DNA of 33,786 nt from Fastidiosipila sp. (GTDB taxonomy: Bacteria > Bacillota > Clostridia > Saccharofermentanales > DTU023): positions 1 to 33,786 of the forward strand of contig JAAZGO010000006.1 in the NCBI GenBank assembly GCA_012511175.1, written 5' to 3'. This document shows, piece after piece, positions 1,122-31,838 of this stretch (the first letter of the stretch is position 1; each line of letters starts with the position of its first letter). Below the pieces are notes generated by a model. It ran no database searches. It saw only the letters and a program-made list of their open reading frames with translations, and was not told where the DNA came from. A program made the position numbers and the translations under genes.

Positions 1122-3689
1122 TCAAAAATCATCATCAACTTCGGCTAACGCAGACATCAACTTATCGAACTGATTAACCAGCCAATCGAAATTCTTTCGA
1201 TAACGTTCCGGATTGAATGCATCCGCCTTAATCTCATGGATGATTCTCTTTGATTTGCTGTTTTTGCGACTCACATCCCACTCAAGAGTTGAACCATAAA
1301 TCACCTCCATTTCCGCTTTCATAGACTTCAACTTCTCAAAACGTTCAGTTTGGTAAATATGCAGGCCAATACGCAGATTCCCCGTCTTCATCACCTGGAA
1401 GAAGGCAATGTATTCACTGCTGCCAATCGAGACGTCATAAGTTCTCGATTGACTCGCTTGCCTGGAGCCTATATCGTTGCTCCTGCCAGTCGATTGACAA
1501 TATTCAACAAAATGGGTCCAGAACTTCAAGCGTTCCATTTGCAGGTCATTCAAATCTTCTGTTTCGGCTAGATATTCATAGTCCCGCTCTAAGTCAAATT
1601 CATAGGAAGGTTTAGGTAACTCAGGCTTTTCATCCCTGTATTCATTCACAAAGGAAATGTGGAGCAAAGCCTGCTTTTGTTCGTCGGTGAAACGCAGTCT
1701 CCATCGAATTTCCATAAAGCTCAACAGTCGAAGGCCTCTGTCCATGATGGAAGATGCCGTCCAATCTTCTTCCTGGGCGACCTCGATTTCAGAGTGTGAT
1801 CCATTCATATAACCTCTCCTCTTTGACGAAGAGTGCTTTTTTTCAGGGAAGCTATCATTTTGCAAAGAAGAATTAATGCTCTGAGCGAGGGGTAGAAGAT
1901 TGCCCAAACTGCCGGACAAAAACTTGATTTCGTCGTCACTGAAGTGTCGGAACTGATTTCGCCAGTACCATTTGTTAGGGGTCTGGGGCAAAATGTGTTC
2001 AATGGTGACCTTATCTTTTTCAGATTTCGAGAACTGCTGCCAAAACACCTTAGGCAGATTGTTCTTTACGGAAAGATGGCTTTCGTATTCAAACAAAAAG
2101 TAGCGTAGATCCCGCCAAGCATAGAAACCTGCATCATTTTCAAATCTTTTGTCAGTTCTGGCCATGAAGTTGGAAATGATGGGATGCAAAACGTCGTCGG
2201 TCTTCTGTCTCAAGTCATCCGCCAGCGCGGTCAAATTTGAATTGTCCTGCGCCAGCTCTCTGGCTTTATTGTAATAAAACGCGCTTTGATAGCTTGGGTT
2301 GAATCTGGCCATCCGGAAGTTAAGGAATATAAATCTCTCAATCTCTTTCAAAAGATAAATCCTCTCCTCTTGGGTGACTTGATTCCCCAGTGACAGAGCG
2401 ACCGCAACCAAAGGGCGAAAGTAACCCATGCCCAGTCGGTCAAGCTTGTTTATCCATTCCTTCTCATTTTCAGAGAGTTCTTTACTGTCGCCAGGGAAAA
2501 AGGTGTAATACCAATACTCGGAAAATTCCTTCAAGCTGTTAACGTAGTCTTTGATCTCTTGAGGTGCGAGGTCGCTGACCAAGTTCACATCGACTTCATC
2601 ATGATCATAGAGTTCATCATCCGAATAGTCCTCGTCGGAAAGTTCAGGTTCTAAAATTTCATTTTCCACTAAGACAGGATGCTTTTCAAAAACATTTTTT
2701 GTTGAAAATTTCTCTAGCAAGAACCGGATGTAGTCATCACCCTTACGACGGGTGTACTTGAAGTAGCTCGTCCAGTGGTTCCTCAGCAGTTCATCATCAT
2801 GCAAGGGGTGGTCTCTATTTCTTCCCAACTGGTAATAAATTTCTTTCCAAGCATTGTTGATATTGTCTCTCAGTTTACTTCCATCCTGCCTATCGAGTTG
2901 CCCGGAATCGTATAGGGTGGTCAAATAAATTAACCGGTTTTTTAGGAGCTCCAAATTACTCAATTTTTTGCCACGGTTATTCATGGTCTCGAAAGCAACA
3001 AAAACATCATAGTCGTCTTCGATCTCGTGCAGGTTAAACGTCAGATTAAGTGTTAATTTTTTATATAGGCTCTCGATTGCAGTCAACCCCTCTTCTTGAT
3101 ATAGAGCTTTGAGATTGGAGGAAAAAAATCTCTTTGCGAACATCAGGTTCTGCGTGTAATAAGTTTCATCAATTTTGCCACCATAAGGTTCTTCAAATAT
3201 CCGATGTTTCAGGTAGTTATAACTCGGGTTGTCTCGCTCATACCCGAATTTATAAGTTTTGATAAGATTTTCAGGCGGCCTCTCTTTGACGATGTACTTT
3301 TCTTTGATGGATCTAACCGATTCAAAACCGATAAACATTTCATCTTCTAGTCTATCTTGGTTCTCGTCCAGGTTCTCAACCAAACGAATGATCTCGTAAA
3401 TGAGGATGGAGAAGGTCGTTAATCGCTGTTGGCCGTCAACAATGTGATAGGCATTATATCCAGATTCAAGCAACCAACTATCATCTTTAGAAGTGAGCAG
3501 AGCCTCTTTGCCTATTTTCTTCAAGGACAATAAGCCTGTATAGTGATACCTTTCATCATGGAGGTTAAGCAAATCTTCCCAGAAATCTTCAAGTTGTTCT
3601 TTTTTCCAGGCATAACCTCTTTGATAATCGGGAACCCGGAAGAGCCGATTCGGATATAGTGAAGAGAGGGGGTAGAGCTGACTTGACAT
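1122..3689 (-). CDS. GmrSD-like DUF262-DUF1524-DUF4268 protein (putative modification-dependent restriction enzyme)
   Basis: An 855-residue protein related to the GmrSD/DUF262 defence family, in which a DUF262 NTPase-like domain is linked to a DUF1524 His-Me-finger nuclease. The DUF262 motifs are VPDYQRGYAW (19-28), DGQQRLTT (85-92) and FETMNNRGKKLSNLELLKN (233-251). An acidic stretch at about 346-368 separates it from DUF1524, where EHILPQ supplies His565 and LGNLLPL supplies Asn597. The last about 120 residues resemble DUF4268, a module often fused to restriction proteins. The start was moved from the upstream in-frame ATG (3749) to 3689. GGAAGAAGG lies about 8 bases before the latter, and a TATACT -10 box at 3729-3724 would put transcription initiation downstream of 3749. 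The GIY-YIG gene is convergent. Substrate specificity (such as modified phage DNA) is inference. Confidence 0.9.
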   Translation of the reverse strand: MSSQLYPLSSLYPNRLFRVPDYQRGYAWKKEQLEDFWEDLLNLHDERYHYTGLLSLKKIGKEALLTSKDDSWLLESGYNAYHIVDGQQRLTTFSILIYEIIRLVENLDENQDRLEDEMFIGFESVRSIKEKYIVKERPPENLIKTYKFGYERDNPSYNYLKHRIFEEPYGGKIDETYYTQNLMFAKRFFSSNLKALYQEEGLTAIESLYKKLTLNLTFNLHEIEDDYDVFVAFETMNNRGKKLSNLELLKNRLIYLTTLYDSGQLDRQDGSKLRDNINNAWKEIYYQLGRNRDHPLHDDELLRNHWTSYFKYTRRKGDDYIRFLLEKFSTKNVFEKHPVLVENEILEPELSDEDYSDDELYDHDEVDVNLVSDLAPQEIKDYVNSLKEFSEYWYYTFFPGDSKELSENEKEWINKLDRLGMGYFRPLVAVALSLGNQVTQEERIYLLKEIERFIFLNFRMARFNPSYQSAFYYNKARELAQDNSNLTALADDLRQKTDDVLHPIISNFMARTDKRFENDAGFYAWRDLRYFLFEYESHLSVKNNLPKVFWQQFSKSEKDKVTIEHILPQTPNKWYWRNQFRHFSDDEIKFLSGSLGNLLPLAQSINSSLQNDSFPEKKHSSSKRRGYMNGSHSEIEVAQEEDWTASSIMDRGLRLLSFMEIRWRLRFTDEQKQALLHISFVNEYRDEKPELPKPSYEFDLERDYEYLAETEDLNDLQMERLKFWTHFVEYCQSTGRSNDIGSRQASQSRTYDVSIGSSEYIAFFQVMKTGNLRIGLHIYQTERFEKLKSMKAEMEVIYGSTLEWDVSRKNSKSKRIIHEIKADAFNPERYRKNFDWLVNQFDKLMSALAEVDDDF

Positions 3690-3723
3690 GGAACAACCTT
3701 CTTCCTTTGATGCCTTTTCCACT

Positions 3724-3729
3724 AGTATA
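3724..3729 (-). promoter_or_regulatory. Probable -10 box (TATACT) for the DUF262 gene
   Basis: On the minus strand TATACT lies 35 bases before the ATG at 3689, which gives a leader of about 28 bases. No strong -35 hexamer is seen 16-18 bases upstream, so it may be a weak or activator-dependent promoter. Confidence 0.45.
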
Positions 3730-3824
3730 ACAGTCTCGGCGCCAGGCATCTCAGCTGTTTGGTTTCATGTCTTCCAGGGGGCCGGGGGTATCTCATTTCT
3801 CGGACGAAAAAATGGGCTATCTGG

Positions 3825-13818: not shown

Positions 13819-14116
13819 CCATCGTCTCCTGATAAAAAAGTCATCTTCTGCGGTTCCCGATCGCCGCAGCCCTCATGTTTTCACGCGCCTCTGGGCCATG
13901 CTGGAGGGCTAATGAAATTGTATCAATCTCAATGAGCCCAGATAAAGAGGACCTGGTATTTTGCTGGAGGGCGGGCAAGGAAATTGATATTATTAGATAA
14001 TTAAAAAAAGTGATGAGACCGACCGGCCGGGGTCGCCGAGCCTGCCATCTGCCGGACTTGTGAGATGAGTGTATGAAGGTGCTAAGACAGATCTGAAGGA
14101 GAAAGGATCGAAAACC
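13819..14116. promoter_or_regulatory. Divergent promoter region
   Basis: About 300 bases lie between the methyltransferase and the flavoprotein gene. For the + gene, TTGCTG at 13961-13966 and TGATAT at 13985-13990 (18-base spacing) are a weak sigma-A-like pair, in an A+T-rich patch (TTGATATTATTAGATAATT) that stands out from its surroundings. The short ORFs in this gap look like chance. No riboswitch was recognised. Confidence 0.3.
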
Positions 14117-15691
14117 ATGAAGTATGTGTGTGGTGTATGCGGATATATCTTTGATGAGGAGGCCGAAGGTAAGAAATTCGAAGAGCTGACTCGCTGCCCC
14201 AATTGTCACTCCCCGGCCTCGGTTTTCAAACCCTTGAAAGAAGAGGGGGAGGAAGCTTCAAAAGAAGACTCGGATTCCGGAAGGGTCTATCAGTGCGGCG
14301 TTTGCGGCTACATCTTTGATGAAAAGGCGGAGGGCAAGAAGTTTGAAGAACTGACCCACTGCCCCCGCTGCCATTCGCCTGCCTCCGTCTTCAAGCGCAT
14401 TGACGGGGGAGAGGTGGCGGAAGAAGACCCGGCAAGCTCGAAGAGCGGGAGCCGGGAAAACTCCCACGACCTGGACTACGATAGCGAAACCATGAGGACC
14501 GACCCCGAAGAACATTACATGGATGACATCCATGAAATGGCGAAAGAAGGGAAGACAATCATTGGTTCCATGGGTCCTCGAGCTGTCAGGCCTTCTTGGG
14601 ACGACATCTTCATCCTGGGAGCTCAACTGGATCCCATGCCCCTGGATGAGCACGCCCCCGTGGATATCACAACCGTAATTGGCAGACGCGCGGCCAAGCC
14701 CATGGTGCTGGACATGCCCGTCTACATCTCCCATATGTCCTTTGGAGCCCTGTCCAAAGAGGCCAAAATATCCTTGGCCAAAGGTGCGGCCATGGCGAAA
14801 ACCGCCATGTGCAGTGGTGAAGGCGGGATCCTGCCCGAGGAAATGGAGGCGGCTTACAAGTACATCTTCGAATACGTGCCCAACCAATACAGCGTCACCG
14901 ATGAAAATCTGCGGAAGGCCGATGCCATCGAAATCAAAATTGGCCAGGCGGCCAAACCGGGGATGGGCGGACAGCTGCCCGGTCACAAGGTCACCTCGGA
15001 GATCGCGGCAATCAGAAACCGCCCGGTGGGAGAGGATATCCTGAGTCCCTCCCGCTTCCCGGGGATTGAGAGTCAGGACGATTTGAAAAAACTGGTGGAC
15101 AGCTTGAGAGAAAGATCCGGCGGCAGGCCCATCGGCATCAAGCTGGCTGCTGGCAGAATCGAAAAAGATCTGGCCTTTGCGGTCGGGGCCGGCATCGATT
15201 TTGTTACCATCGACGGCAGGGGAGGCGCCACGGGGGCAAGCCCAAAACTCTTGCGGGATGCCACAGGTCTCCCGACCATTTACGCCCTGCGCCGGGCCAG
15301 AAAATTTCTGGACTCCATCGGGTCAGATATCGAACTGGTCATCACCGGGGGCCTTCGGGTTTCCTCGGATTTTGCCAAAGCCATCGCCCTTGGCGCCGAT
15401 GCTGTGGCCATCGCTTCGGCGGCCCTGATGGCAGCGGCCTGCCAGCAGTACAAGATCTGCCACACCGGCTATTGCCCCACGGGAGTGACGAGCCAGGATC
15501 CGGAACTCCGCAAACGGCTCCACGTCGACGTCGCCGGGCAAAGAGTCTACAATTTCCTCAAAGTGTCAGCGGAAGAACTCAAAATCTACGGGAGAGTCAC
15601 GGGGCACGACAAGATCCACCAACTGACCTTGGAAGACCTCTGTACCGTCGATCGGGATCTGGCCGAATACGCCGATATTCCGCACGCCTGA
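14117..15691 (+). CDS. Glutamate synthase-like FMN protein with two N-terminal rubredoxin-like domains
   Basis: A 524-residue protein of the glutamate-synthase FMN-domain family, resembling the stand-alone alpha-type subunits of anaerobes. The N-terminus has two nearly identical rubredoxin-like zinc/iron knuckles: Cys5, Cys8, Cys27, Cys30 and Cys60, Cys63, Cys82, Cys85. The FMN/[3Fe-4S] barrel follows (about 150-510), with GGQLPGHKV, FVTIDGRGGATGASP and a 3Fe-4S cluster motif CQQYKICHTGYC (Cys442, Cys448, Cys453), the C-x5-C-x4-C spacing of GltB. No glutamine amidotransferase domain is present, so ammonia-dependent or unrelated redox chemistry is possible. The start at 14117 is the Met directly before the first knuckle, with GGAGAAAGG upstream. 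The gene is followed by a hairpin terminator. Confidence 0.9.
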   Translation: MKYVCGVCGYIFDEEAEGKKFEELTRCPNCHSPASVFKPLKEEGEEASKEDSDSGRVYQCGVCGYIFDEKAEGKKFEELTHCPRCHSPASVFKRIDGGEVAEEDPASSKSGSRENSHDLDYDSETMRTDPEEHYMDDIHEMAKEGKTIIGSMGPRAVRPSWDDIFILGAQLDPMPLDEHAPVDITTVIGRRAAKPMVLDMPVYISHMSFGALSKEAKISLAKGAAMAKTAMCSGEGGILPEEMEAAYKYIFEYVPNQYSVTDENLRKADAIEIKIGQAAKPGMGGQLPGHKVTSEIAAIRNRPVGEDILSPSRFPGIESQDDLKKLVDSLRERSGGRPIGIKLAAGRIEKDLAFAVGAGIDFVTIDGRGGATGASPKLLRDATGLPTIYALRRARKFLDSIGSDIELVITGGLRVSSDFAKAIALGADAVAIASAALMAAACQQYKICHTGYCPTGVTSQDPELRKRLHVDVAGQRVYNFLKVSAEELKIYGRVTGHDKIHQLTLEDLCTVDRDLAEYADIPHA

Positions 15692-17521: not shown

Positions 17522-18574
17522 ATGAAAAAGACAACGATTGCAATTTTGGCCTTGATGCTGCTCCTGATGCTCATCGTTACAGCCTGCGCACCAAGCACAC
17601 CGCCTGAAGAGGAACCTGAAAAGACTTTCACCAGTGCCATCTTAATACCCGGTACATTGGGGGACAATCCCATTTTTCAGATGATGGTGGGAGGTGCGGA
17701 GGAAGCTGCCGCAGAGGCGGGATATGACAAACCAAAGGTGGTCGAGGGCGGCGATGATTATGCGGGATACGGAAACCTGCTCCTGAGTCTGGCGGAAGCT
17801 AAATCATATGACCTTTTAATCACCTACACCGACAGCATGGTTGAAGATGTACTGAGCATCGCTGAAACTTTCCCTGAGCAGAAGATTCTGCTTCTTGATG
17901 GGGATATTCCTGCCACAGGGCAGAAAAACCCTTCCAATGTCTACTCAGCCCGTTTCAAGAACGAGGATCTCGGTTATCTGGGGGGATGTTTCGCTGCTCT
18001 TATTACCAAAAGTGACTTGCCAAATGCCAATGCGGATCTCAAAGTTGGACTGATCTTCACGGACATCTATCCCACATGGAGCAATTACACCCAGCCGGGA
18101 TTTGAGAACGGCGTCAAGGCTGTTGATCCCGAGGTGGAAGTTGTCTTTTCCGTGGTGGGCAACTGGGTCGATCCCCTCAAAGGGGCTGAAGTTGCCAGGG
18201 CACAGTTCGCGCAAGGTGTGGATGTGGTCTGGTTTACGACAGGGGCATCCACCTACGGAGCTGTCGATGAAGCGAAAAGGCAGAACAAGTACGCGATATG
18301 CAGTGATAACAACGGAATCGCGGACGCGCCCGAAGTCATTCTGGGTTGTACATTGATCGAAGGCAGAGAGTCGGCAAAAGACGCTTTCATTAAAGCCTAC
18401 AAAGGTGAGCTGCCCTACGGCACTGCTGATGTAATGGGAGCCAAAGAAGGTGTTGTAAGCTTCACGTTCGATGATCCAAGCTATCTGGAGAAAGTTCCGA
18501 AAGATATCAGGGACGCGATGGAAGCCATCTACAAAGATTTGGTTGACGGGAAAATTGATACGCTAGCAAAATAA
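17522..18574 (+). CDS. BMP-family (PnrA-like) nucleoside ABC transporter substrate-binding lipoprotein
   Basis: A 350-residue extracellular lipoprotein that captures substrate for the adjacent ABC transporter. The signal peptide ends in the lipobox VTAC with Cys22, followed by a Pro/Glu-rich linker. The mature domain has BMP/PnrA features: LGDNPIFQMMVGGAEEAA near the start, DLLITYTDSMVEDVL, the VYSARFKNEDLGYLGG segment, and VGLIFTDIYPTWSNYTQPGFENGV. Characterised relatives bind purine nucleosides. GGAGAG lies upstream of the ATG. It is the first gene of a seven-gene run on one strand and is preceded by a leader of about 370 bases from the candidate promoter. The ligand may be a modified nucleoside, given the downstream enzymes (inference). 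Confidence 0.92.
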   Translation: MKKTTIAILALMLLLMLIVTACAPSTPPEEEPEKTFTSAILIPGTLGDNPIFQMMVGGAEEAAAEAGYDKPKVVEGGDDYAGYGNLLLSLAEAKSYDLLITYTDSMVEDVLSIAETFPEQKILLLDGDIPATGQKNPSNVYSARFKNEDLGYLGGCFAALITKSDLPNANADLKVGLIFTDIYPTWSNYTQPGFENGVKAVDPEVEVVFSVVGNWVDPLKGAEVARAQFAQGVDVVWFTTGASTYGAVDEAKRQNKYAICSDNNGIADAPEVILGCTLIEGRESAKDAFIKAYKGELPYGTADVMGAKEGVVSFTFDDPSYLEKVPKDIRDAMEAIYKDLVDGKIDTLAK

Positions 18575-18631
18575 CGGACATTGCCATGAATGTCGCTTGG
18601 TACTCCTGTTGTCTTAAGGAGGTTTTTGGTT

Positions 18632-20182
18632 GTGCAAAACTTTTTGGAAATGACGGGAATCTGCAAAACCTATGAGGCCTACGGCACGCAAATCAAAGCA
18701 CTGGATGATGCATCCATCAGCGTGAAAAAAGGTACTGTTCATGGGCTTTTGGGGGAAAATGGTGCGGGCAAATCCACCCTGATGAAGATCCTTGGCGGTG
18801 TCGAAAAGATGGACGCCGGTTCCGTTCAGTTCAACGGCCGGGAAGCAAGATTGAGAAGTGCTTCCCAGGCCGCCGAACTCGGTATCGGGATGGTTCACCA
18901 GCATTTCAGCCTGATTGAAGACTTTACCGTGGAGGAAAATGTTGTCCTGGGAATTGAACCAACACGTTTTCCTGGCGTCATTAGCATGAAAGAGGTGCGC
19001 GAAACTTTATCCCGGATGGCACAGGAATGTGGCTTCAAGCTGGATCTTAAGGCAAAGGTAGGCAGCCTTTCCATGGGACAGCGCCAGAAGGTGGAGATCT
19101 TGAGACTCCTTTACAGCAACTCAGAATTGTTGATTTTTGACGAGCCTACTTCGGTGCTTATCGAGCAGGAAGTTGAGAGTCTGCTGAGGACCATCGCCTT
19201 GCTTAAGGCCAAGGGGAAAACAATCATTTACATCAGCCACAAGGTGGAGGAGATCTTGAAGATAACCGACGAGGTAACTGTTTTGCGTTCAGGCAAAACA
19301 GTTGCCCGCGTCGCGACCGAAACAATCAACGCCGAAAAAATGGTACAGATGATGGTCGGTAAACACATCCCGCTTGAAGTGGAGAAAGAACAACAGGCGG
19401 CGGGAGATGTGCTGCTGGAAGTAAAAAATCTGAGCATTGATAATGGTTTGATCCAAACGGTCAAGAATGTCTCCTTTGAGCTGCGGGCCGGTGAAATTGT
19501 TGCTGTGGCAGGCATCAGCGGAAACGGTCAGCAGGAGATGATCGAAGCCATCCTGGGCTTCAGGGAGCCCGCCAGTGGCCAGATCTATATTGGAGAAGAG
19601 GAAGTGACGGGACTGACCCCGCGTCAACGCAGACAAAGGGGGGTCTGTTATATCCCCGAAGACAGGATCCAGGTCGGTTCATGTGCCACAGCCACCCTGG
19701 CTGAAAACATGATCGTGGATCGATATTTCGAGGCACCCCTGGCCAAACGGGGCTGGATCAATCTCAAAACGATGCATGCGCTGGCACGGGAACTGGTCGC
19801 CAAGTATAAGATCAAGACTGCCAACACTGACTGCATGATCGGAACCTTATCCGGCGGCAATATCCAAAGAACTATCATCGCCAGAGAATTAAGCGCGGAT
19901 CCCAAGCTTCTTTTTGCATGCGAGATTACCATGGGTCTGGATGTCGAGTCGTGCCGATACGTTTACGACATGCTGCTCAACATGCGGAGAGAACAAAAAG
20001 CAGTCCTGCTCTTGTCAAGCAATATCAACGAAGTGATGAGCCTTGCTGACAGAATACTCGTCATTCATGAGGGGGAAATTGTTGCCCACTTTCCCCGAAG
20101 TGAAGACTTCAACAAGGAGGAGTTGGGTGAATACATGCTTGGGCTCAAGGTTCAGGACCGCCAGTTGAAGGAAGTAAGCTAA
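18632..20182 (+). CDS. Nucleoside ABC transporter ATP-binding protein (two NBDs)
   Basis: A 516-residue double ATPase of the RbsA/YufO type that powers the two permeases downstream. NBD1 has Walker A GENGAGKST, signature LSMGQ and Walker B LLIFDEPTS (here followed by VL). NBD2 has the usual degenerate Walker A GISGNGQQEM, signature LSGGN and Walker B-like LLFACEITMGLD. In the latter, CEIT replaces the usual QPTR, a variation in the degenerate site. The start is a GTG at 18632, chosen for AAGGAGG upstream; the longer in-frame start has no binding site. It lies 57 bases after the BMP gene. Confidence 0.93.
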   Translation: MQNFLEMTGICKTYEAYGTQIKALDDASISVKKGTVHGLLGENGAGKSTLMKILGGVEKMDAGSVQFNGREARLRSASQAAELGIGMVHQHFSLIEDFTVEENVVLGIEPTRFPGVISMKEVRETLSRMAQECGFKLDLKAKVGSLSMGQRQKVEILRLLYSNSELLIFDEPTSVLIEQEVESLLRTIALLKAKGKTIIYISHKVEEILKITDEVTVLRSGKTVARVATETINAEKMVQMMVGKHIPLEVEKEQQAAGDVLLEVKNLSIDNGLIQTVKNVSFELRAGEIVAVAGISGNGQQEMIEAILGFREPASGQIYIGEEEVTGLTPRQRRQRGVCYIPEDRIQVGSCATATLAENMIVDRYFEAPLAKRGWINLKTMHALARELVAKYKIKTANTDCMIGTLSGGNIQRTIIARELSADPKLLFACEITMGLDVESCRYVYDMLLNMRREQKAVLLLSSNINEVMSLADRILVIHEGEIVAHFPRSEDFNKEELGEYMLGLKVQDRQLKEVS

Positions 20183-20205: not shown

Positions 20206-21246
20206 GTGAAAAAAATCAAACAACATTTGACTCAGATTCTCGTGATCGGGTTCGGCTTGCTGATGGCCTGCATCGTGATCCTGCTCACCAGCAAGGAACC
20301 TTTTACCGCCATAAAATACTTCTTTATTGGACCCTTCAGCAGCCGTTACTTTTTGGGCAACATGATCAGCTATGCCATCCCCCTGATTATTACAGGGCTT
20401 GCCGCCTGTGTTTCTTTTTCAGCGTCGGTTTGGAATATGGGACTTGAGGGACAGATGTATTTTGGCATGTTGTGCGGTACCTACGCCGCTTTTCAGCTCC
20501 CTTCCATGCCGGCTGTCATGGCAGTTCCCTTGATTTTGGTGGTGGCTTTTGTCGCGGGAGGAAGTGTTGCGGCCCTGTCCGCCTTTTTGCAGCAAAAAAT
20601 GCGGGTGGATGTCATTGTGTCCTCTTTGTTGATCTCCAATGCGGTATTTTATCTGGTCAACTTTATTCTTGAAGGGCCCTTCAATGACCCCACCTCGGGT
20701 GCGGGCATCACCTCACCCCGCTTCAACTCCAAATTCATGCTCCCCCGCATTCTGGCTCCATCGGAGCTCCATGCCGGCCTGTTTTTTGCCCTCCTTCTGG
20801 TGGCAGTCATCCACATCATGATGAAGCACAGGGTGCTGGGCTACGAAATCGGGATTACCGGAAAGAATCCTTTATTCGCGCAGTATGGAGGAATGAATGC
20901 CCCCAAGGTGGCAGCCCTGGCCATGTTACTCAGCGGCGGTTTGGCCGGACTCGCAGGAATGACTGATATCCTGGGCACCCAGGGACGCATGTTGGCCTAC
21001 ATGAGCGGCTTCGGCTGGGACGGAATTTCTATTGCCCTGATTGCACGCAACAATCCTGTTTTCACAGTTTTTGTGGCTTTCTTTTTTGCCTTGTTGCAAA
21101 AGGGCGCGGAAAATGCCTCTCTATTCTCAGATATTTCACCTGACATTGCCCAACTTATTCAGGCAGCCATTTTATTTCTGGTGACCGGAGAGGCACTTTT
21201 CAGTTTTTCAAAAAGACGTAAAGATTTACGAGAGGCGATGAGGTGA
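20206..21246 (+). CDS. Nucleoside ABC transporter permease, first subunit
   Basis: A 346-residue inner-membrane permease of the BPD_transp_2 (branched-chain amino acid/ribose/nucleoside) family, YufP-like. It has about eight to ten hydrophobic segments, with the family signatures NMGLEGQMYFGM and AGLAGMTDILGTQGRM, then SGFGWDGISIALIARNNP. It starts with GTG, with GAGAGG upstream, 23 bases after the ATPase gene. It should pair with the next gene to form the channel. Confidence 0.92.
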   Translation: MKKIKQHLTQILVIGFGLLMACIVILLTSKEPFTAIKYFFIGPFSSRYFLGNMISYAIPLIITGLAACVSFSASVWNMGLEGQMYFGMLCGTYAAFQLPSMPAVMAVPLILVVAFVAGGSVAALSAFLQQKMRVDVIVSSLLISNAVFYLVNFILEGPFNDPTSGAGITSPRFNSKFMLPRILAPSELHAGLFFALLLVAVIHIMMKHRVLGYEIGITGKNPLFAQYGGMNAPKVAALAMLLSGGLAGLAGMTDILGTQGRMLAYMSGFGWDGISIALIARNNPVFTVFVAFFFALLQKGAENASLFSDISPDIAQLIQAAILFLVTGEALFSFSKRRKDLREAMR

Positions 21247-21250
21247 CTTC

Positions 21251-22174
21251 GTGCTTTATAATCAGATCAACAGCTTTCTATTCACAATCGTCGCGACTTC
21301 CACGCCCATCTTATTGGCCTCACAGGGTGGTTTGCTAACTGGCATGAGCGGTATGTTCAATGTGGGGCTGGAAGGAATGATGCTGATGGCAGCTTTCTTT
21401 TCGGTCTTCACCTGTAACGCCACTGGCAGCCTTGTTTTGGGTTTGGGCGCGGGCGTCGGCGTTGCCATGCTGGTGGGTTTAATGATGGTCTTTATTTCGA
21501 CCAAGCTCAAAGCCGACATCTTCGTCGTGGGCATCGCTACCAATTTGCTATCAACAGGGCTGACAACCTTTCTTGGAAGTTGGCTCCTGGGACTCAAAGG
21601 CACGCTGCTTTTCAAGGATGCCCCCCGGTTGGCTCTTTTGGATATTCCGCTGATCCGCGACATTCCTTTGCTGAATGGTTTTCTGAACGGCCACCACCTG
21701 ATCGACTACCTTGGAATTGTACTGACCATTCTGCTCTATCTGATCGTTTTCTACACGACCTTTGGACGCCATTCGATGGCTGTCGGCATCAGCCCCTGGG
21801 TCGCGCATGCGAGGGGGATCCCGGTGGATAAGATCAGGTACTTGTCCTATCTTGGATGCGGGTTGTTTTGTGGTTTGGCCGGAGCCGCCTTGTCACTGCC
21901 CATCGGCGCTTTTATGGGTGGCCCTGTTGGAATGACTAACGGCCGGGGCTGGCTTGCCATGGCTGTCGTTGTCATTGGAAACAACAATCCGCTGAGGATA
22001 CTGATGGTGGCTTGGGCCTTCGGAGCAATCTCCGCTGCAGCGGACATCATCCAGGCAACAACCCATTTCTCCCCCCGCCTGCTGATGGCCTTTCCCTTCA
22101 TAGGCGCACTCTTGATCACGATGCTTTATTCCATGCGGAAGGGCAAGGGCGGTCCCGGAACAAGCGGATTGTAG
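21251..22174 (+). CDS. Nucleoside ABC transporter permease, second subunit
   Basis: A 307-residue permease, YufQ-like, partner of the previous subunit. It carries MFNVGLEGMMLMAAF and the cytoplasmic-loop motif ISPWVAHARGIPVDKIRYLSY, then GLAGAALSLP, typical of the family. It starts with GTG 4 bases after the preceding TGA, with GAGGTGA overlapping that stop as the binding site, which indicates translational coupling. It ends 31 bases before the amidohydrolase gene. Confidence 0.92.
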   Translation: MLYNQINSFLFTIVATSTPILLASQGGLLTGMSGMFNVGLEGMMLMAAFFSVFTCNATGSLVLGLGAGVGVAMLVGLMMVFISTKLKADIFVVGIATNLLSTGLTTFLGSWLLGLKGTLLFKDAPRLALLDIPLIRDIPLLNGFLNGHHLIDYLGIVLTILLYLIVFYTTFGRHSMAVGISPWVAHARGIPVDKIRYLSYLGCGLFCGLAGAALSLPIGAFMGGPVGMTNGRGWLAMAVVVIGNNNPLRILMVAWAFGAISAAADIIQATTHFSPRLLMAFPFIGALLITMLYSMRKGKGGPGTSGL

Positions 22175-22205: not shown

Positions 22206-23558
22206 ATGATCCTGGTAAAAAACGTTTCCTTTATGGTTTGCCATGACGATGAGATCAAACATGACCTGGATCTTTTAATCGAAGGGAATACTATCGCGGC
22301 GATTGGAACAGATCTTGTGCAGGATCCTGATCGCTGTCACACGGTCCTGGATGGGCGGGGGAAACTGGTCATGCCGGGATTGATCAATTCCCACACCCAT
22401 TTATGGCAATCATTCCTCAAGGGGAAAAGAGATGATCTGCCATTGACTCCCTGGTGCGATGAGATCATCTTGCCTTTCCTCAAAAAGCTGACTCAGTGTG
22501 ATGGGAGGAAAGGCTCGGGAGAGATCTCCTATTTGTGGTCCATGCTGGGCGCTATGGAAATGGTGCGGTCTGGAATTACCACGGTCATTGACATGGACCT
22601 CGGCTTCCAATCCCATCTGATACCCCAGGCCTGGGTTGATTTGGGAATGAGGGGTGTGATTGCCGTTGAGATGTCCGACCAGTGGGGATCTTCAGCAGAA
22701 GGAGCCTCGATTGAAGATGAGATGGAAAACGTTCTGGATCTGGTCGAGCGCTGGCACCGCCCCTGGACAGGAGATAATCTGGTCCAGGTAGCCCTGGGAC
22801 CCTCTGCACCTTTTATCTGCAGTGAGACTTTGCTGGCCTGGGTGAAGCAACAGGCAGAAACTTACGGGCTGGGAATCCAAATCCATGTCTCCGAGACAAA
22901 AGGCGAAGTGGAGGAGGCTCTCGCAAGATGGGGGAAACATCCCCTTGAGTATTTGGAGACAACGGGTCTTCTCTCCTGTCCGGTTTCTGCAGTCCATTGC
23001 GTGCACCTGACTCCACAAGAAATCGAACTGGCACGCCGTTACGCCGTTGTTCCCGTCTATTGCCCAAAAAGCAATATGAAACTTGGAAGCGGAGTTGCAC
23101 CGCTGAAAGAAATGCTGGACGCTGGACTGGAGATCGCGTTGGCAACTGACGGAGCGGCCTCCAATGACCTTTTGGATCCCTTTGAAGAGATGCGGGCAGG
23201 TGTCATGCTGCAAAAAGCGACGCGCGAAGACCCCGCGGCAGCCAGCGCACATCAACTGCTCCGGATGGCAACCAGCGGGGGGGCCAAAGCCTGCAGGCTG
23301 GACGCTGGCATCATTGCGCCCGGGAAACTTGCGGATCTTGTCATCTTGGATTTTGACGCGCCTCATCTGCTGAGCTTTGATTCCGACCTTGTGCCGGCTC
23401 TGGTTTATTGTGCGAAAGCCGGTGACGTCGAGTCAGTCATCATTAATGGCAAACTGGTCATGCGGGACAGAAAGTTCCTCTGCATCGATGAAGACTTGCT
23501 CTATGATGAAATTGTGGCAGCAGGTCGTTATTATGCGGACGGTCAAGTCTGGGAATGA
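22206..23558 (+). CDS. MtaD/SsnA-like amidohydrolase (putative nucleoside or base deaminase)
   Basis: A 450-residue cytoplasmic metal-dependent hydrolase of the ATZ/TRZ-MtaD group, whose members deaminate methylthioadenosine, S-adenosylhomocysteine, guanine or related rings. The metal ligands expected in the family are visible: His63 and His65 (NSHTH), His227 (QIHVSE, with Glu230), His264 or His267 (AVHCVHLT) and Asp315 (ATDGAASN). The C-terminal beta part ends in VIINGKLVMRD, usual for the composite domain. GGAG precedes the ATG. The transporter in front and the Mch-like enzyme behind suggest that it acts on the imported nucleoside or its base. The exact substrate cannot be read from the sequence. 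Confidence 0.88.
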   Translation: MILVKNVSFMVCHDDEIKHDLDLLIEGNTIAAIGTDLVQDPDRCHTVLDGRGKLVMPGLINSHTHLWQSFLKGKRDDLPLTPWCDEIILPFLKKLTQCDGRKGSGEISYLWSMLGAMEMVRSGITTVIDMDLGFQSHLIPQAWVDLGMRGVIAVEMSDQWGSSAEGASIEDEMENVLDLVERWHRPWTGDNLVQVALGPSAPFICSETLLAWVKQQAETYGLGIQIHVSETKGEVEEALARWGKHPLEYLETTGLLSCPVSAVHCVHLTPQEIELARRYAVVPVYCPKSNMKLGSGVAPLKEMLDAGLEIALATDGAASNDLLDPFEEMRAGVMLQKATREDPAAASAHQLLRMATSGGAKACRLDAGIIAPGKLADLVILDFDAPHLLSFDSDLVPALVYCAKAGDVESVIINGKLVMRDRKFLCIDEDLLYDEIVAAGRYYADGQVWE

Positions 23559-23584
23559 AGTGAATCCGGCAGGAGGGTGGACGC

Positions 23585-24553
23585 TTGTTTGAAGAACAAT
23601 TTCAAATGGACAAAAGGTGCAGGACCTTACTGGAGCGGCTGTGGAATCACAGGGAGGACTACGGCCTGAGATTTGCGACACTCGGCTCAGGCGCGCAGAT
23701 CGTTGATGCAGGTGTGGAAGTCCGGGGCTCCCTTGAGGCGGGGCGGCTGATCACTGAACTCTGCCAGGGGGGGTGTTGCACCACATCGCTTGATCTGACG
23801 GACATCGGGGGTATCGTCTTGCCCCGGATCACTGTCCAATCCTTTTTCCCAACCTTTTCAGCCTATAAATTGCAGGCAGCCCGCGATGTTGACGGAAAAA
23901 TGGTATCAGGCCCCATCCGTCTTTGTTTGGAAACCAGCGAGCGGGGAGAACCTAACATAATGATTGAGCCAGTCAAGGCCTGCGGCATTGCCGTCGTCCA
24001 GTCCGATGACCTTCCTTCAGAGGCATGGGTCAAGTCACTGGCAAGTCAAAGCGGTCTCCGGCCACCGGATTTGACTCTGGTGGTCGCCCCCATCCTGAGT
24101 GTGGCCGGCGCCACGCAAATCGCCGGCAGGGTCAATGAGAATGTCATTTTTTCCATGGAACAAAGCATCGGCAGCGATTCCACCAGGGTTAAACAGTTGA
24201 TCGGCAGTTCACCCGTTGCCCCTCTTGGAAAAGATCCCAACGACTATAACAGACCTTTCCCCGATGATCTTCTGCATTATGCGGGCAGGGCATATCTTGT
24301 TCTGGATGCCAAGCCGGAGGAAGACGTCCAGAAACTCGCTGACGCCCTGTGTTTTCAATCCACGTCTCTTTATGGCAAGTTTTTCGGTACGGTCCTTGAG
24401 GAGGTCAATGGTGTATTCATGGATATCCCCGGGCTTCTCGACATCAACAAAATTGCTCAGGTGACCATCAATGATCTGAATACGGGCATGCTCTACCATG
24501 CGGGTCGGCAGGAATACGCCCTGTTGAATGAACTCTTGACCCGCAGGTCATAA
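23585..24553 (+). CDS. Methenyltetrahydromethanopterin cyclohydrolase (Mch) homologue
   Basis: A 322-residue homologue of the archaeal and methylotroph enzyme that hydrolyses the imidazolinium ring of methenyl-tetrahydromethanopterin to a formyl product. Similarity runs the whole length: GVEVRGSLEAGRLITELCQGG (43-63), LTLVVAPILSVAGATQI (163-179), SPVAPLGKDPND (209-220), LHYAGRAYLVLDA (230-242), STSLYGKFF (259-267) and INDLNTGMLYHAGRQEY (295-311). The Arg-x-x-Glu pair known to be catalytic in Mch (Arg183/Glu186 in archaeal numbering, from memory) is present as Arg182/Glu185. It starts with TTG, supported by AGGAGG 8 bases upstream, 26 bases after the amidohydrolase gene. No other tetrahydromethanopterin gene is in the window, so a different substrate is possible. 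Confidence 0.88.
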   Translation: MFEEQFQMDKRCRTLLERLWNHREDYGLRFATLGSGAQIVDAGVEVRGSLEAGRLITELCQGGCCTTSLDLTDIGGIVLPRITVQSFFPTFSAYKLQAARDVDGKMVSGPIRLCLETSERGEPNIMIEPVKACGIAVVQSDDLPSEAWVKSLASQSGLRPPDLTLVVAPILSVAGATQIAGRVNENVIFSMEQSIGSDSTRVKQLIGSSPVAPLGKDPNDYNRPFPDDLLHYAGRAYLVLDAKPEEDVQKLADALCFQSTSLYGKFFGTVLEEVNGVFMDIPGLLDINKIAQVTINDLNTGMLYHAGRQEYALLNELLTRRS

Positions 24554-24643
24554 GCTGCATTTGCTCTCAGGTCAGCCAAAGCACGGAACCTTGTCAGGGC
24601 AGGACAGGATGCATGTTATGCTCATAGTTGAATGGAGCGATCG

Positions 24644-26836
24644 ATGGCGGTATTTCCTGATGAATACATCGAAAAGATTTACGCCGGCTGGCTGGCGAAA
24701 GTAATTGGCGTCAGGCTTGGCGCGCCCATCGAGGGCTGGACTTACGACAAAATCCGCCACACCCTGGGTCAGCCAGACGGTTACGTTGCAAACTACAGGA
24801 ATTTCGCAGCGGATGATGACACGAACGGCTCGATTTTTTTCCTGAGAGCTTTGGAGGATAAGCCACCCGGTCAGCCTTTGGAACCCGCTCATGTAGCGAC
24901 AGCTTTGCTGAATTATGTTCCTTATGAGCACGGATTTTTCTGGTGGGGCGGTTACGGCGTATCGACGGAACACACGGCCTACCTGAATCTGCAAAATGGA
25001 ATCCCGGCACCGCGCAGCGGCAGTGCCGAACAAAATGGCCTCATGCTTGCGGAGCAGATTGGCGGGCAAATCTTTATTGATACGTGGGGGTTGGTTGCCC
25101 CCGGCAACCCTGATCTTGCCGCATGCCTGGCGGAAGCGGCAGCAAGTGTTACACATGGGCAGAATGGAGTATTTGGCGGTGTTTTCATTGCTGCCGCTAT
25201 CAGCGAAGCTTTTGTCGAAAAGGATATCGGGCGCATCATCGAAAAGGGCTTGGCCTATCTGCCCGAAGATTGTGAGTATCGCCGCGTTGTGAACGCAGTC
25301 ATCGATTTTCATCAAAAAGACCGTGAAAAAAACCACGACCAAGCGAGCTGGGAAAATTGTTACCACTATATTTACAAACATTTTGGCTACGACAAATATC
25401 CAGGTGCCTGCCACATCATCCCCAACGCTGCCGTGATCATTTTGTCGCTGCTGTACGGTGAAGGTGATTTTTCAAAGACAATCACCATTTGCAATCGTTG
25501 TGGCTGGGATACGGACTGTAACGCAGGCAATGTCGCGACTATCATGGGCGTCCGCAACGGACTGGATGCCATCGATTACGAGAAGTGGAGAAGGCCGGTC
25601 AATGATCTGCTTATTTGCTCGAGTGTCGTAGGATCCCTGAATATCATGGATATTCCTTATGGGGCAGCCTACATGGTCAAACTGGCCGCCGCCATGGCCG
25701 GACAAGAACTTTCGGAGCCTTGGCGAACGATTGTTTCGCAAGCTGTCAACGCTTGCCATTTCGAATTCCCCGGTTCAACTCATGCCATCAGGGCGCGCTT
25801 GGGAACATCACACGCTGACTCAACCTATTCCGGCCCCCTGTCGATTATCAATAGCACCGAAACAGCTTTTTCCGGTCAACGTTCCTTGAAAATTGCCATC
25901 CCCGCCGTCCATGACTGGGAAGAATTTTTTGTGTACAAAAAAACATACTATCTTCCTGATGATTTTGATGACAGCAGGTATGACCCCTGCTTTTCACCTC
26001 TTGTGTACTCCGGCCAAACCATCAGGGGCGCAGCGATGGCTCCCGCTTATGGTTGCGCATTGTCTGTACAGCTTTACGCCCATGACTTGATCAACAATAA
26101 TATTCTTCGCTCCGAAGCCCAGACCCTGGAAGCCGGCCAATGGAAAAGATTGAGCTGGCAGCTTCCGGCAGGATGCCCAACCCTGATTGATGAAATTGGC
26201 TTTGTCTTCAATGTCAGGTACAGATCGGACCGGCCTGTCCAGGCAGTTGCCTTTATTGACGACTTATTTGCAGAAGGTTGTCCTGATTACCGCTTGGATT
26301 TCTCCGACTCCACGATAGACGTTTGGAGTCAAACTCATAGAACATTGGCACAGTTTTCAAGGCTCAAGGGAAATCACTATCTGGACAATGGCCGAATGCA
26401 CCTCTCCGCAGCGGATTTTGCTGAGATTTACACTGGCAGTCACGATTGGCGCGATTATGAAGTGACTTTTGAGTTAACGCCCTTGGCAGGACCTGAAGTC
26501 AGAGTCAACTTCCGGGTGCAAGGGGCAATGCGCTGCTACGCGGTCGCCTTCTTGGAGGGAGACCGAATTTGCCTGCTCAAGAACGACAGCGGCTATTCGT
26601 CCCTGCTAAGCCGGCCTTTCGTTTGGCAACAAGATGAATCCTACACCATTACCGTCCGGGCAAAAAAAGCAGCATACACGGTGTTCGTCAATGGTGAACA
26701 GGTGTTTTCTTATGTGGACGATCACGAACCTTTCTTATATGGTGCAATCGGTTATTCGGCATTCCGGGGCAGTCGCCTGTCCAGTCATGGTTTCAGCGTC
26801 AAGCCCATCCAAGAAGCATGCAGCCCAACGCAATAA
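24644..26836 (+). CDS. ADP-ribosylglycohydrolase-family protein with C-terminal beta-sandwich modules
   Basis: A 730-residue protein. The N-terminal about 330 residues are an ARH-fold glycohydrolase: DDDTNGS (57-63) and GWDTDCNAGN (287-296) fit the two metal-binding Asp-rich motifs of the family. ARH enzymes cleave N-glycosidic bonds of ADP-ribose, and relatives near nucleoside transporters may cleave nucleosides (inference). The C-terminal half has two beta-rich segments. One (about 375-540) resembles a carbohydrate-binding domain. The other (about 560-725) resembles a LamG/DUF1080-type sandwich, with HDWRDYEVTFEL and VNGEQVFSY. No signal peptide is seen, which is odd for such modules. The start at 24644 has GGAG 6 bases upstream; the earlier ATG at 24632 does not. 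It lies 90 bases after the Mch-like gene and is probably the last gene of the operon. Confidence 0.87.
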   Translation: MAVFPDEYIEKIYAGWLAKVIGVRLGAPIEGWTYDKIRHTLGQPDGYVANYRNFAADDDTNGSIFFLRALEDKPPGQPLEPAHVATALLNYVPYEHGFFWWGGYGVSTEHTAYLNLQNGIPAPRSGSAEQNGLMLAEQIGGQIFIDTWGLVAPGNPDLAACLAEAAASVTHGQNGVFGGVFIAAAISEAFVEKDIGRIIEKGLAYLPEDCEYRRVVNAVIDFHQKDREKNHDQASWENCYHYIYKHFGYDKYPGACHIIPNAAVIILSLLYGEGDFSKTITICNRCGWDTDCNAGNVATIMGVRNGLDAIDYEKWRRPVNDLLICSSVVGSLNIMDIPYGAAYMVKLAAAMAGQELSEPWRTIVSQAVNACHFEFPGSTHAIRARLGTSHADSTYSGPLSIINSTETAFSGQRSLKIAIPAVHDWEEFFVYKKTYYLPDDFDDSRYDPCFSPLVYSGQTIRGAAMAPAYGCALSVQLYAHDLINNNILRSEAQTLEAGQWKRLSWQLPAGCPTLIDEIGFVFNVRYRSDRPVQAVAFIDDLFAEGCPDYRLDFSDSTIDVWSQTHRTLAQFSRLKGNHYLDNGRMHLSAADFAEIYTGSHDWRDYEVTFELTPLAGPEVRVNFRVQGAMRCYAVAFLEGDRICLLKNDSGYSSLLSRPFVWQQDESYTITVRAKKAAYTVFVNGEQVFSYVDDHEPFLYGAIGYSAFRGSRLSSHGFSVKPIQEACSPTQ

Positions 26837-29435: not shown

Positions 29436-30206
29436 TCAAGCCATACCTACCTCCATTACTGCAGCCGTATTCTTTCGCATGAGCGCATTGGCAATACGGT
29501 AACTTGGTCCACCGCACAGGATTAGATAGCCAAAGTGGACCAGGCGGTCAATCATGGCAGCCGCCATCTGTTCATCGGTGAAGATGGTTCCCCAGGCAGA
29601 GAACTCCATGTTGGTTGTCACAATGAGGCTCTTACGTTCGTAGCAGTCCGAGATGACACGAAAGAGCAGTTGACTTCCCTGTCGGTCGACGGGCACATAC
29701 CCCCACTCATCGAGGATGAGTAAATCCAGTCCCTGGATCTCTGCCATGAGCCGCTCAAGCCTCCCTGAACGATGTGCTTCACCCAAACGCAACACAAGGT
29801 CAGAAAGCGTGTAGAAGCGCACAGCATAATCCTGTTCGCAGGCCAGCATGCCGAGCGCAATGGCCAGGTGAGTCTTGCCAGTCCCGACCTGTCCGTAGAA
29901 GATGAGATTTTGTTTCTGCCGGATATAGCTGCCATCAGCCAGATCTTCAATCGTGACCCCTGTAGGAAACTGTACATTCGAAAAGTCAAAGTCTTCCAAT
30001 CGTTTCCGGGAAGGGAAGTTGGCTTTGTTAAGTCTTTTGGCCCGGCGGCTTTGGTTGCGGTGTTCCACCTCAGCATGGAGTACATCATGCAGGAAGCGCT
30101 CTTGTTCCTCATTGGCCCTCTGTTCGCTCAAAGCAACCACACGCTGGGAAAGCTTGAGCTGTTTGCAATAGGCGGAAAGTCTTTGCCTCAAATCTTCCCG
30201 ATCCAT
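29436..30206 (-). CDS. istB: IS21-family helper ATPase IstB
   Basis: A 256-residue AAA+ ATPase that stimulates and targets the IstA transposase. It has the IS21 N-terminal helical domain, Walker A GQVGTGKTH, Walker B LLILDEWG and sensor-1-like SLIVTTNMEFSAW, ending with a typical HFGYLILCGGPSYRI segment. The start at 30206 (MDRED) is preferred: it lies just after the istA stop, and the family start is similar. A GTG at 30215 would overlap istA by 8 bases. Length is normal for IstB. Confidence 0.93.
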   Translation of the reverse strand: MDREDLRQRLSAYCKQLKLSQRVVALSEQRANEEQERFLHDVLHAEVEHRNQSRRAKRLNKANFPSRKRLEDFDFSNVQFPTGVTIEDLADGSYIRQKQNLIFYGQVGTGKTHLAIALGMLACEQDYAVRFYTLSDLVLRLGEAHRSGRLERLMAEIQGLDLLILDEWGYVPVDRQGSQLLFRVISDCYERKSLIVTTNMEFSAWGTIFTDEQMAAAMIDRLVHFGYLILCGGPSYRIANALMRKNTAAVMEVGMA

Positions 30207-30207
30207 C

Positions 30208-31677
30208 CTAGGCACCTGCCTTTCTGCTTAAGAAGAACCGGTCGTAGACGCCAAGATCGATACGGGAAGAAGATTCCCTTCCTCCCTCTATCCCACTGTC
30301 CAGGATCTGGGCCGCATAAAGGGAAGCTGTGGCATAGCCGCCGTTCCCTTCGTCTAATGAGCGTAATAAGGCCTGGAGACTTATCTCCTTGCTGTAGCGC
30401 TCAGACAGTTGCAAAAGAACCCGTAGCGCCCGCTTCAATTCCACAGCGTCCAAGTCATCCAGCCGATCACGGACACTCGAAGGCATGTGCTCTCGAAGCC
30501 CACTGTTGCGCCAGGCATTGGGGGCGCGCACAAGTTGCAGTAAGGTGGTGTAATGGTCGGTCGAATCCGTTCGTTGGTTTCCAAAGCGCCGTTCATGTGA
30601 AGCCACTGACCGCCCATTAGTGTCAAACAGCTCAACCATGTGAGCGCGAATACCAACCAGGATCTCCTCTTGCCTTAACTCCGGGCAGCTGGAGTAATAG
30701 TGCTTACCGTCCAGACAGATCTTGCCGTAGTTATCCGCTTGCCGGGTCTCGTAGCGAACGACGTCAAACCGGGCGGCGGGAAGTTCACGCATGGCATCGC
30801 GATCTTCATCGAAGAGCTCCAGGACCAACTTCGACTTCTTGTAGTGGCGGTCTTGCCCCTGTGATTCACATTCGTGTAAAAGCTCCCGGTTGAAAGATAC
30901 GAGATCCTCCAGCTCACGTACAGGGACAAAGAGGTTACGTCGGATATAACCGACCTTGTTTTCAACATGGCCTTTCTCATGCCCACTGTTGGGATTGCAA
31001 AAACGGATCTTGAAACCGTGATGTAATCGAAAACGACGAAAGAGGTCGGCTTCCCGCATGACATTCTCGATGCGTACTCCCACGCCAGCTGCGTTGTCAA
31101 AGACAATTACAAGAGGTATCGCCCCTATATGGTAAAAGATATCCAAAAGCCCTTGACAGGCACACTCGGCCGTCTCACCACGGAAGACCTGGACGTAGGC
31201 CTGGTTGCTGTAGGGAAATGACAGGGTAAGGTAATGGAGACGTTCCAGCTTCCCTGACACAAGAAAGTCTGCCTGCCCGAAGTCCGCTTGTGCCTGGCCT
31301 GGATACCAATGCAGTTCCAGGAAGGTCGTCCCTTCATGGTGTTTCCTGCGCCATGCTTTCACGTAGCGCTGGACGGTGGGATAGGAGCCCTGGTAGTCCG
31401 TTTCCTGCAAGAGACGGTCGTAAATCCTTTTGGCGGTATGACGTTGCTTATGCCAGCTGTTACGGTCATCAGAAAGCCACCGGTTGATGAGAGCCTTATA
31501 GGGATCCAGGATGGAGACGCGTTCCTTCTTCAAGGGCATTTTCTCGGTGAAATCCTGTGCTTCAAGGTATTTTCTGACCGTTTTCCTGTCATAGCCCAGG
31601 TCACGGGCTATCTCGCTGATGTAACTGCCATTCGCGTAGGCATTTTTGATACTATCGATTTGGGGCATGTTGAGCAT
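30208..31677 (-). CDS. istA: IS21-family transposase IstA
   Basis: A 489-residue DDE transposase. The N-terminal helix-turn-helix (NGSYISEIARDLGYDRKTVRKYL) is followed by the RNase H-like core: Asp in QADFGQADF, Asp in VIVFDNAAG, and Glu in GHEKGHVENKVGYIRR, the expected D, D, E triad. The C-terminal beta-barrel has KHYYSSCPEL. The frame is open upstream to 31797, but that part lies in the terminal repeat array. The ATG at 31677 begins the usual IstA N-terminus and has GAGAGG about 10 bases upstream; ATG at 31668 is an alternative. Confidence 0.93.
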   Translation of the reverse strand: MLNMPQIDSIKNAYANGSYISEIARDLGYDRKTVRKYLEAQDFTEKMPLKKERVSILDPYKALINRWLSDDRNSWHKQRHTAKRIYDRLLQETDYQGSYPTVQRYVKAWRRKHHEGTTFLELHWYPGQAQADFGQADFLVSGKLERLHYLTLSFPYSNQAYVQVFRGETAECACQGLLDIFYHIGAIPLVIVFDNAAGVGVRIENVMREADLFRRFRLHHGFKIRFCNPNSGHEKGHVENKVGYIRRNLFVPVRELEDLVSFNRELLHECESQGQDRHYKKSKLVLELFDEDRDAMRELPAARFDVVRYETRQADNYGKICLDGKHYYSSCPELRQEEILVGIRAHMVELFDTNGRSVASHERRFGNQRTDSTDHYTTLLQLVRAPNAWRNSGLREHMPSSVRDRLDDLDAVELKRALRVLLQLSERYSKEISLQALLRSLDEGNGGYATASLYAAQILDSGIEGGRESSSRIDLGVYDRFFLSRKAGA

Positions 31678-31758
31678 TCCTTCCCAGCCTCTCTTTCTTC
31701 TTTTCTTATCCGAAAGAATAGGCATTTTGGGACAGGGGCTCAACCTGTCCCTTTTTGT

Positions 31759-31838
31759 TGATCTTTTTGGGGATTTCCCCATGATCTTTTTGGCCATGCC
31801 TCGTGATTTTTTTGGGTGTTTTTAGATTACGCTATACA
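31759..31838. repeat. IS21 right-end repeat array
   Basis: TGATCTTTTTGG (31759-31770 and 31782-31793) and TGATTTTTTTGG (31804-31815) are spaced 22-23 bp, then GATTACGCTATACA reaches the end. They are the inverted counterparts of the left-end array. Confidence 0.75.

Follow-up and report, generated by a model that had tools for sequence, protein, structure and literature searches.

What does an Mch-family cyclohydrolase do in a clostridial-type bacterium whose genome holds no recognisable route to methanopterin, and why does its gene stand behind an importer? We addressed this question at a stretch of 33,786 nucleotides from Fastidiosipila sp. (contig JAAZGO010000006.1; hereafter the window), part of a draft genome (G000) of 1.7 Mb in 42 contigs that is 97.7% complete. 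The initial annotation rightly called the genome clostridial-type; a relative of the same genus is filed as a Clostridiaceae bacterium. It also regarded the setting as unusual for Mch. Within its family Mch is indeed very rare, being carried by 2 of 38 genomes; across the phylum it is less unusual and is found in 26 of 398 genomes, often in two to five copies each. The features of the locus are as follows.

17522-18574, + strand: BMP-family substrate-binding lipoprotein (SBP), RfuA-like (PF02608, 7.7e-44)
18590-20182, + strand: ABC importer ATPase with two ABC domains (PF00005, two stretches)
20206-21246, + strand: ABC importer permease 1 (PF02653)
21251-22174, + strand: ABC importer permease 2 (PF02653)
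22206-23558, + strand: COG0402-type amidohydrolase of a subfamily tied to Mch and Ftr (PF01979, 8.5e-67)
23571-23576, + strand: Shine-Dalgarno site AGGAGG, 8 nt before the TTG
23585-24553, + strand: divergent Mch-family cyclohydrolase, the focal gene (PF02289; TTG start; R182/E185)
24632-26836, + strand: DraG-like ADP-ribosylglycohydrolase with a C-terminal 3-keto-disaccharide-hydrolase-type domain (PF03747, 8.5e-59; PF06439)

A full-length Mch homologue with its catalytic pair retained

The focal reading frame is open, begins with TTG and encodes 322 residues. As the initial annotation had proposed, it is an Mch homologue over its full length: residues 10-316 match positions 4-309 of the 311 in the Pfam MCH profile (PF02289; 1.2e-49), and the score of 169.7 bits, against a curated cutoff of 25, places it in the superfamily. 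The match is far above chance, and among PDB entries the protein matches Methanopyrus kandleri Mch (1qlm, 9.5e-37) and the A. fulgidus structures 4gvq and 4fio. The R-x-x-E pair is likewise intact. In both the M. kandleri and the A. fulgidus enzyme, Arg183 and Glu186 are the counterparts of Arg182 and Glu185; these residues are reported to be important for catalysis in A. fulgidus Mch, and a column-wise comparison found the pair invariant in all 46 full-length Mch homologues.

The TTG start is supported because AGGAGG lies 8 nt upstream, and because this site, its spacing and the TTG are all kept (locus L006) in a second window-type Mch, 92% identical, on contig JAAZGN010000018.1 of another genome of the same genus (G008). 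Between the two copies dN is 0.048 and dS 0.323, and the dN/dS of about 0.15 therefore indicates purifying selection and a maintained protein. Short Mch-like paralogues without the Arg/Glu pair adjoin other bacterial Mch genes, and the window protein might similarly be a non-catalytic binding or regulatory derivative. We consider this very improbable, however, since the window protein is full length and Arg182, Glu185 and the SGP motif are under purifying selection.

Window Mch departs from canonical Mch

Judged by its sequence, the window Mch is a long, isolated branch and not an ordinary Mch. On the equivalog profile TIGR03120 it scores 164.9 bits, below the cutoff of 228.8, whereas three other Mch copies of the same genome score 245-267 bits. 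We compared residues across 15 canonical and 29 other bacterial Mch sequences, using M. kandleri numbering (A. fulgidus Mch numbers one lower above about residue 190, so that N227 is its N226), and assessed the pocket region of the window protein by conservation alone; an AlphaFold2 model from a two-sequence alignment reached a mean pLDDT of 33 and was set aside. In window-type Mch, G96-W97 and A222 are deleted, Y128 is replaced by Ile (I127) and N227 by Asp (D227). Canonical Mch shows no variation at these columns, and the other bacterial paralogues almost always retain them; the window protein has lost W97, Y128, A222 and N227 alike. K191 is replaced by Ser, in a column that varies among the other bacterial copies. 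Retained are D37, G39, the SGP motif (S109-G110-P111), Q179, R183 and E186.

In maximum-likelihood trees the window and G008 copies share a long branch of 3.27 changes per column. One tree sets them among bacterial canonical Mch (support 98/98) and another with archaeal Mch (70/99), and an AU test of a canonical group that excludes them gives p = 0.53; we attribute the conflicting placement to the long branch. A bacterial paralogue clade of 29 sequences, which we call class B, has 100/100 support with both window-type copies outside it, and we rejected membership of the window Mch in that class. No further window-type copies were found in a class-level genome scan, and no further relatives in viral contigs. 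A separate bacterial lineage with altered pocket-region residues, which the initial annotation had named as the outcome in its favour, is thus what the deletions and the Y128I and N227D replacements describe. The opposite outcome, in which the protein would nest in a canonical clade and keep every pterin-contact residue, is contradicted by the residues, while on placement the trees divide.

The window copy therefore has in common with canonical Mch (PF02289/TIGR03120, EC 3.5.4.27) the fold, the catalytic Arg and Glu and the SGP motif. It differs in its sub-cutoff score, long branch and lost residues, and also in its context: the gene lies within an importer operon, in a genome without RFAP synthase.

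The gene lies in an importer operon

The operon runs SBP, ATPase, permease, permease, amidohydrolase, Mch and DraG-like gene, with intergenic gaps of 4-31 bp except for the final one, which spans 78 bp. This 78-bp gap shows no strong terminator on the + strand, and the DraG-like gene is probably, from the gene arrangement, the last gene of the operon; gene order is the same in G008, whose contig stops short of that gene. The amidohydrolase carries the motifs HxH (63-65), HVSE (227) and D315, and the DraG-like protein carries the metal-site-like motifs DDDT (61) and GWDTD (291).

The SBP has as its best PDB match T. pallidum TpN38(b) (4iil, 1.9e-46), with PnrA (2fqw) at 2.6e-18. It is 32% identical to RfuA, with which it has an NAD insertion and the GNW-D and DNG-A-AP motifs in common, so that by sequence comparison it is nearer to this riboflavin binder than to the purine-nucleoside binder. 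Elsewhere in the phylum, SBPs linked to Mch also belong to the BMP family but do not resemble RfuA. The operon thus resembles the spirochaete riboflavin importer RfuABCD in its SBP and in the order SBP-ATPase-permease-permease, but the identity falls below the >38% used as the threshold for RfuA orthologues (PMC4418817), and neither an FMN riboswitch nor any other Rfam match was found at the operon. A riboflavin role argued from an FMN riboswitch is accordingly unsupported. Firmicutes rfu-like operons have purine riboswitches upstream, and rfu-type operons outside spirochaetes may carry other substrates (PMC4418817).

The window also holds features apart from the operon. An IS21-like pair (IstB-like ATPase and Mu-type transposase; 29436-31797) lies downstream and fits an accessory region. 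A GmrSD-type (type IV restriction) protein with DUF4268 is encoded at 1122-3749, next to a GIY-YIG/DUF4357 protein at 70-996. A 540-residue reading frame at 14069-15691 opens, by eye, with two CxxC..CxxC rubredoxin-like units in an unusual tandem arrangement, after which comes a glutamate-synthase-like FMN domain.

Ftr occupies the Mch position in an orthologous operon

Contig 10 of G153, a genome of another family, holds an orthologous operon (L113) with the nearest of all relatives of the amidohydrolase. Identity to the window operon is 81% for the SBP, 74% for the ATPase, 79% and 81% for permeases 1 and 2 and 70% for the amidohydrolase. Directly after the amidohydrolase, however, stands not Mch but Ftr, 58% identical to the Ftr of G000. 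RFAP synthase (TIGR00144) is absent from the G153 draft. On sequence grounds, then, a single importer operon is combined with either of two enzymes, Mch and Ftr, which are not homologous; what they share is the methanopterin C1 carrier. Their common position behind this importer points to pterin-type C1 compounds as what is imported.

Of 398 genomes, seven hold a member of the amidohydrolase subfamily (at least 360 bits), and six of these seven have Mch (Fisher test, about 4e-7); this p-value is optimistic because three of the genomes (G210, G265 and G290) belong to one genus, and the genome counts are not phylogenetically independent. In the window's family the amidohydrolase orthologue is confined to the two genomes with window-type Mch. 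Contig C24 of G000 carries two relatives at 45% identity, one adjoining Ftr and one adjoining Mch. Of the 19 non-canonical stretches, 12 have a BMP-type importer next to Mch; the five canonical clusters have no such importer, nor does one occur in any of 16 other G000 stretches. In G232 (L075:2786-9260) an Mch that groups with canonical sequences nonetheless adjoins a BMP importer, although the genome has neither Ftr nor RFAP synthase; this case is a second, independent link between Mch and an importer, and the association as a whole points to repeated recruitment.

Class-B Mch genes have neighbours of their own. Directly beside them in five genomes are short Mch-like proteins of 240-271 residues (L062:8897-9703, L066:13669-14391, L069:8965-9723, L070:7558-8337 and L071:8722-9537), which form one 100/100 clade and lack the catalytic Glu in all five cases and the Arg in four; by sequence these are perhaps a non-catalytic partner subunit. 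At L064:8468-14581, L066:7064-12584, L072:8774-14242 and L119:8986-13237, class-B Mch flanks or adjoins genes for a complex of two-subunit TPP-dependent E1 and lipoyl E2, and for an SDR dehydrogenase, which suggests oxidative side-chain cleavage in the same pathway. Genes resembling methyl-H4F:corrinoid methyltransferases adjoin class-B Mch at L065:7412-8206 (PRK07535, 229 bits) and L079:9192-9989 (assigned by the likeness of its start), together with genes for a DAO oxidase, an amidohydrolase and an ECF-type transporter.

A divergent Ftr-like family was also noted (L115:10732-11616, L117:8377-9252 and L118:8507-9433; 82-96 bits, about 25-27% identity to the G000 Ftr). The genomes concerned lack RFAP synthase, and the operons that hold this family also have dehydrogenases, an FGGY-type kinase-like gene and a COG0402 amidohydrolase.

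Methanopterin-type enzymes without a recognisable route to methanopterin

Of the five Mch homologues in G000, C24 carries three and C32 one; the fifth is the window copy, which is much more divergent than any of the others. C24 is also the site of genes for Ftr, FhcA-, FhcC- and FhcB-like proteins, an MptN-like RimK ligase and an ATP-grasp protein, and near its Mch paralogues lie the purine-type genes XdhA-like, YgeY, YgeW-like, PreA-like and cytosine-deaminase-like. That the window contig or the other Mch contigs come from another organism is extremely unlikely. The assembly is a draft, and the G+C of C24 and C32 is slightly below that of the rest; against an artefact, the tetranucleotide profile of the window fits the genome (0.978), C24 and C32 are also close, a second genome of the genus (G008) has the 92% identical copy with its gene order unchanged, and the single-contig genome G210 likewise has multiple Mch copies. 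Contamination by a G153-like organism was rejected, the composition of G153 being far from that of C24, C32 and the window.

RFAP synthase is the committed enzyme of methanopterin synthesis. By a single profile (TIGR00144), it is absent from all 18 of the 27 Mch genomes without a canonical Fhc-Mch cluster, among them the draft G000 and the single-contig G189, G201 and G210, and it is present in all nine with such a cluster. MfnB (PF04476) is also absent from G000, which is less telling because it was missed in four of the nine canonical-cluster genomes too. With neither marker detectable, G000 is probably unable to make methanopterin. As far as sequence profiles can tell, it holds methanopterin-type enzymes without a recognisable route to methanopterin, and this, together with the importer operon, changes the likely role of the window Mch. 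The methylotroph formaldehyde-oxidation module (FhcABCD-mch-mptN) has related enzymes on C24, and its Ftr has a counterpart in the orthologous operon, but the canonical clusters (L061, L063, L073, L078 and L080) have no importer and sit in genomes with RFAP synthase.

Such a gene set could also serve a true Mch working on salvaged H4MPT, in which the intact cofactor is imported and Mch, Ftr and Fhc oxidise C1 units to formate. The C24 enzymes would suit this, in a genome without RFAP synthase or MfnB, and Hakuba actinobacteria have fwd/ftr while the methanopterin biosynthesis genes sought in them were absent (PMC7325909). We nevertheless regard it as unlikely: five Mch copies would be superfluous, the pocket region is changed most in the window copy, which also scores below the equivalog cutoff, and Ftr is missing from 12 of the 27 Mch genomes, including the single-contig G189 and G201.

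A change of carrier to tetrahydrofolate, which would make the window protein a methenyl-H4F cyclohydrolase, has a precedent in the proposal that a haloarchaeal Mch (Haloferax HVO_2573) acts on tetrahydrofolate (PMC8305020), and folate enzymes are present in G000. The haloarchaeal case is alike in that Mch is used outside methanopterin metabolism, but it concerns a single C1-metabolism gene, where the window genome has FolD as well as an importer operon. The folate C1 enzymes of G000 are normal, with FolD and an FTCD_C/FchA-type protein present, and Mch is therefore not needed for folate chemistry there. A missing folate cyclohydrolase was rejected as the main reading, and a switch to tetrahydrofolate, which accounts neither for the importer operon nor for the Ftr that fills the Mch position in G153, is quite improbable.

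The purine-type genes beside other Mch paralogues make a purine-like substrate possible. BMP importers often carry purine nucleosides, and COG0402 deaminases and DraG-like N-glycosidases suit nucleosides. The DraG-like enzyme would remove ribose, the amidohydrolase would deaminate the ring, and the Mch fold, its pocket-region residues altered, would then open the cyclic amidine of the imported purine or other N-heterocycle. Yet the SBP is closer to RfuA than to PnrA, the orthologous operon has Ftr, which has no obvious purine role, and we know of no Mch-fold purine enzyme. On balance, a purine or other N-heterocycle cyclohydrolase seems to us rather doubtful.

Discussion

We favour, with moderate confidence, the explanation that the window protein is a divergent Mch-type hydrolase recruited to scavenge or degrade an imported pterin or C1-carrier-like compound, a substrate that we infer from the genomic setting. 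The importer would take up a pterin- or flavin-like molecule, most likely a methanopterin-like cofactor or C1 adduct released by neighbours. The DraG-like enzyme may cut a ribosyl link of this compound, and the amidohydrolase may either deaminate its ring or take off a formimino or formyl group. Through Arg182 and Glu185, the Mch-like enzyme would convert a cyclic amidinium, the methenyl bridge of a reduced pterin or close analogue, to an N-formyl form, and it would not serve any home-made methanopterin pathway. Counting against the pterin reading, similarity to RfuA is just 32%, BMP importers have often changed substrates, and a methanopterin-binding Mch would be expected to keep W97, Y128 and N227.

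A more specific version, which we put forward tentatively and hold to be somewhat unlikely, would explain every gene of the operon: with methanogens as neighbours, it would be an H4MPT uptake-and-degradation (or reuse) system in anaerobic bacteria. The RfuA-like importer would take in the cofactor or its C1 adducts, the DraG-like enzyme would split the alpha-ribosyl link, the pterin-deaminase-type amidohydrolase would attack the pterin, and Mch- or Ftr-type enzymes would remove the C1 unit. The ribosyl link of methanopterin is indeed alpha, and DraG-type enzymes also cut alpha bonds. The isolate label of the same-genus relative resembles those of anaerobic-digester studies.

In the open-access literature, with subscription papers mostly outside the search and novelty thus provisional, we found no description of Mch-family genes in importer operons, and no paper on an anaerobic route that recycles pterin C1 cofactors of methanogens or other microbes. 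An anaerobic riboflavin-to-lumichrome gene neighbourhood is described in Clostridium scindens, with no mention of a cyclohydrolase, an amidohydrolase or methanopterin (PMC12934955).

Because the orthologous operon has Ftr where the window has Mch, a single binding protein and two enzymes would suffice for a direct test of the substrate. When Mch turns up in a metagenome, it is often taken to signal methanopterin C1 metabolism, methylotrophy or methanogenesis; in the window and in much of the phylum sample, Mch-family genes stand beside nutrient importers without the biosynthesis markers, so annotations of this kind can mislead. Should the substrate be a pterin C1 carrier, the operon would represent an anaerobic bacterial route for recycling the cofactors of methanogens or other microbes, and our analysis suggests that bacteria like G000 salvage or degrade pterin cofactors that come from their neighbours.
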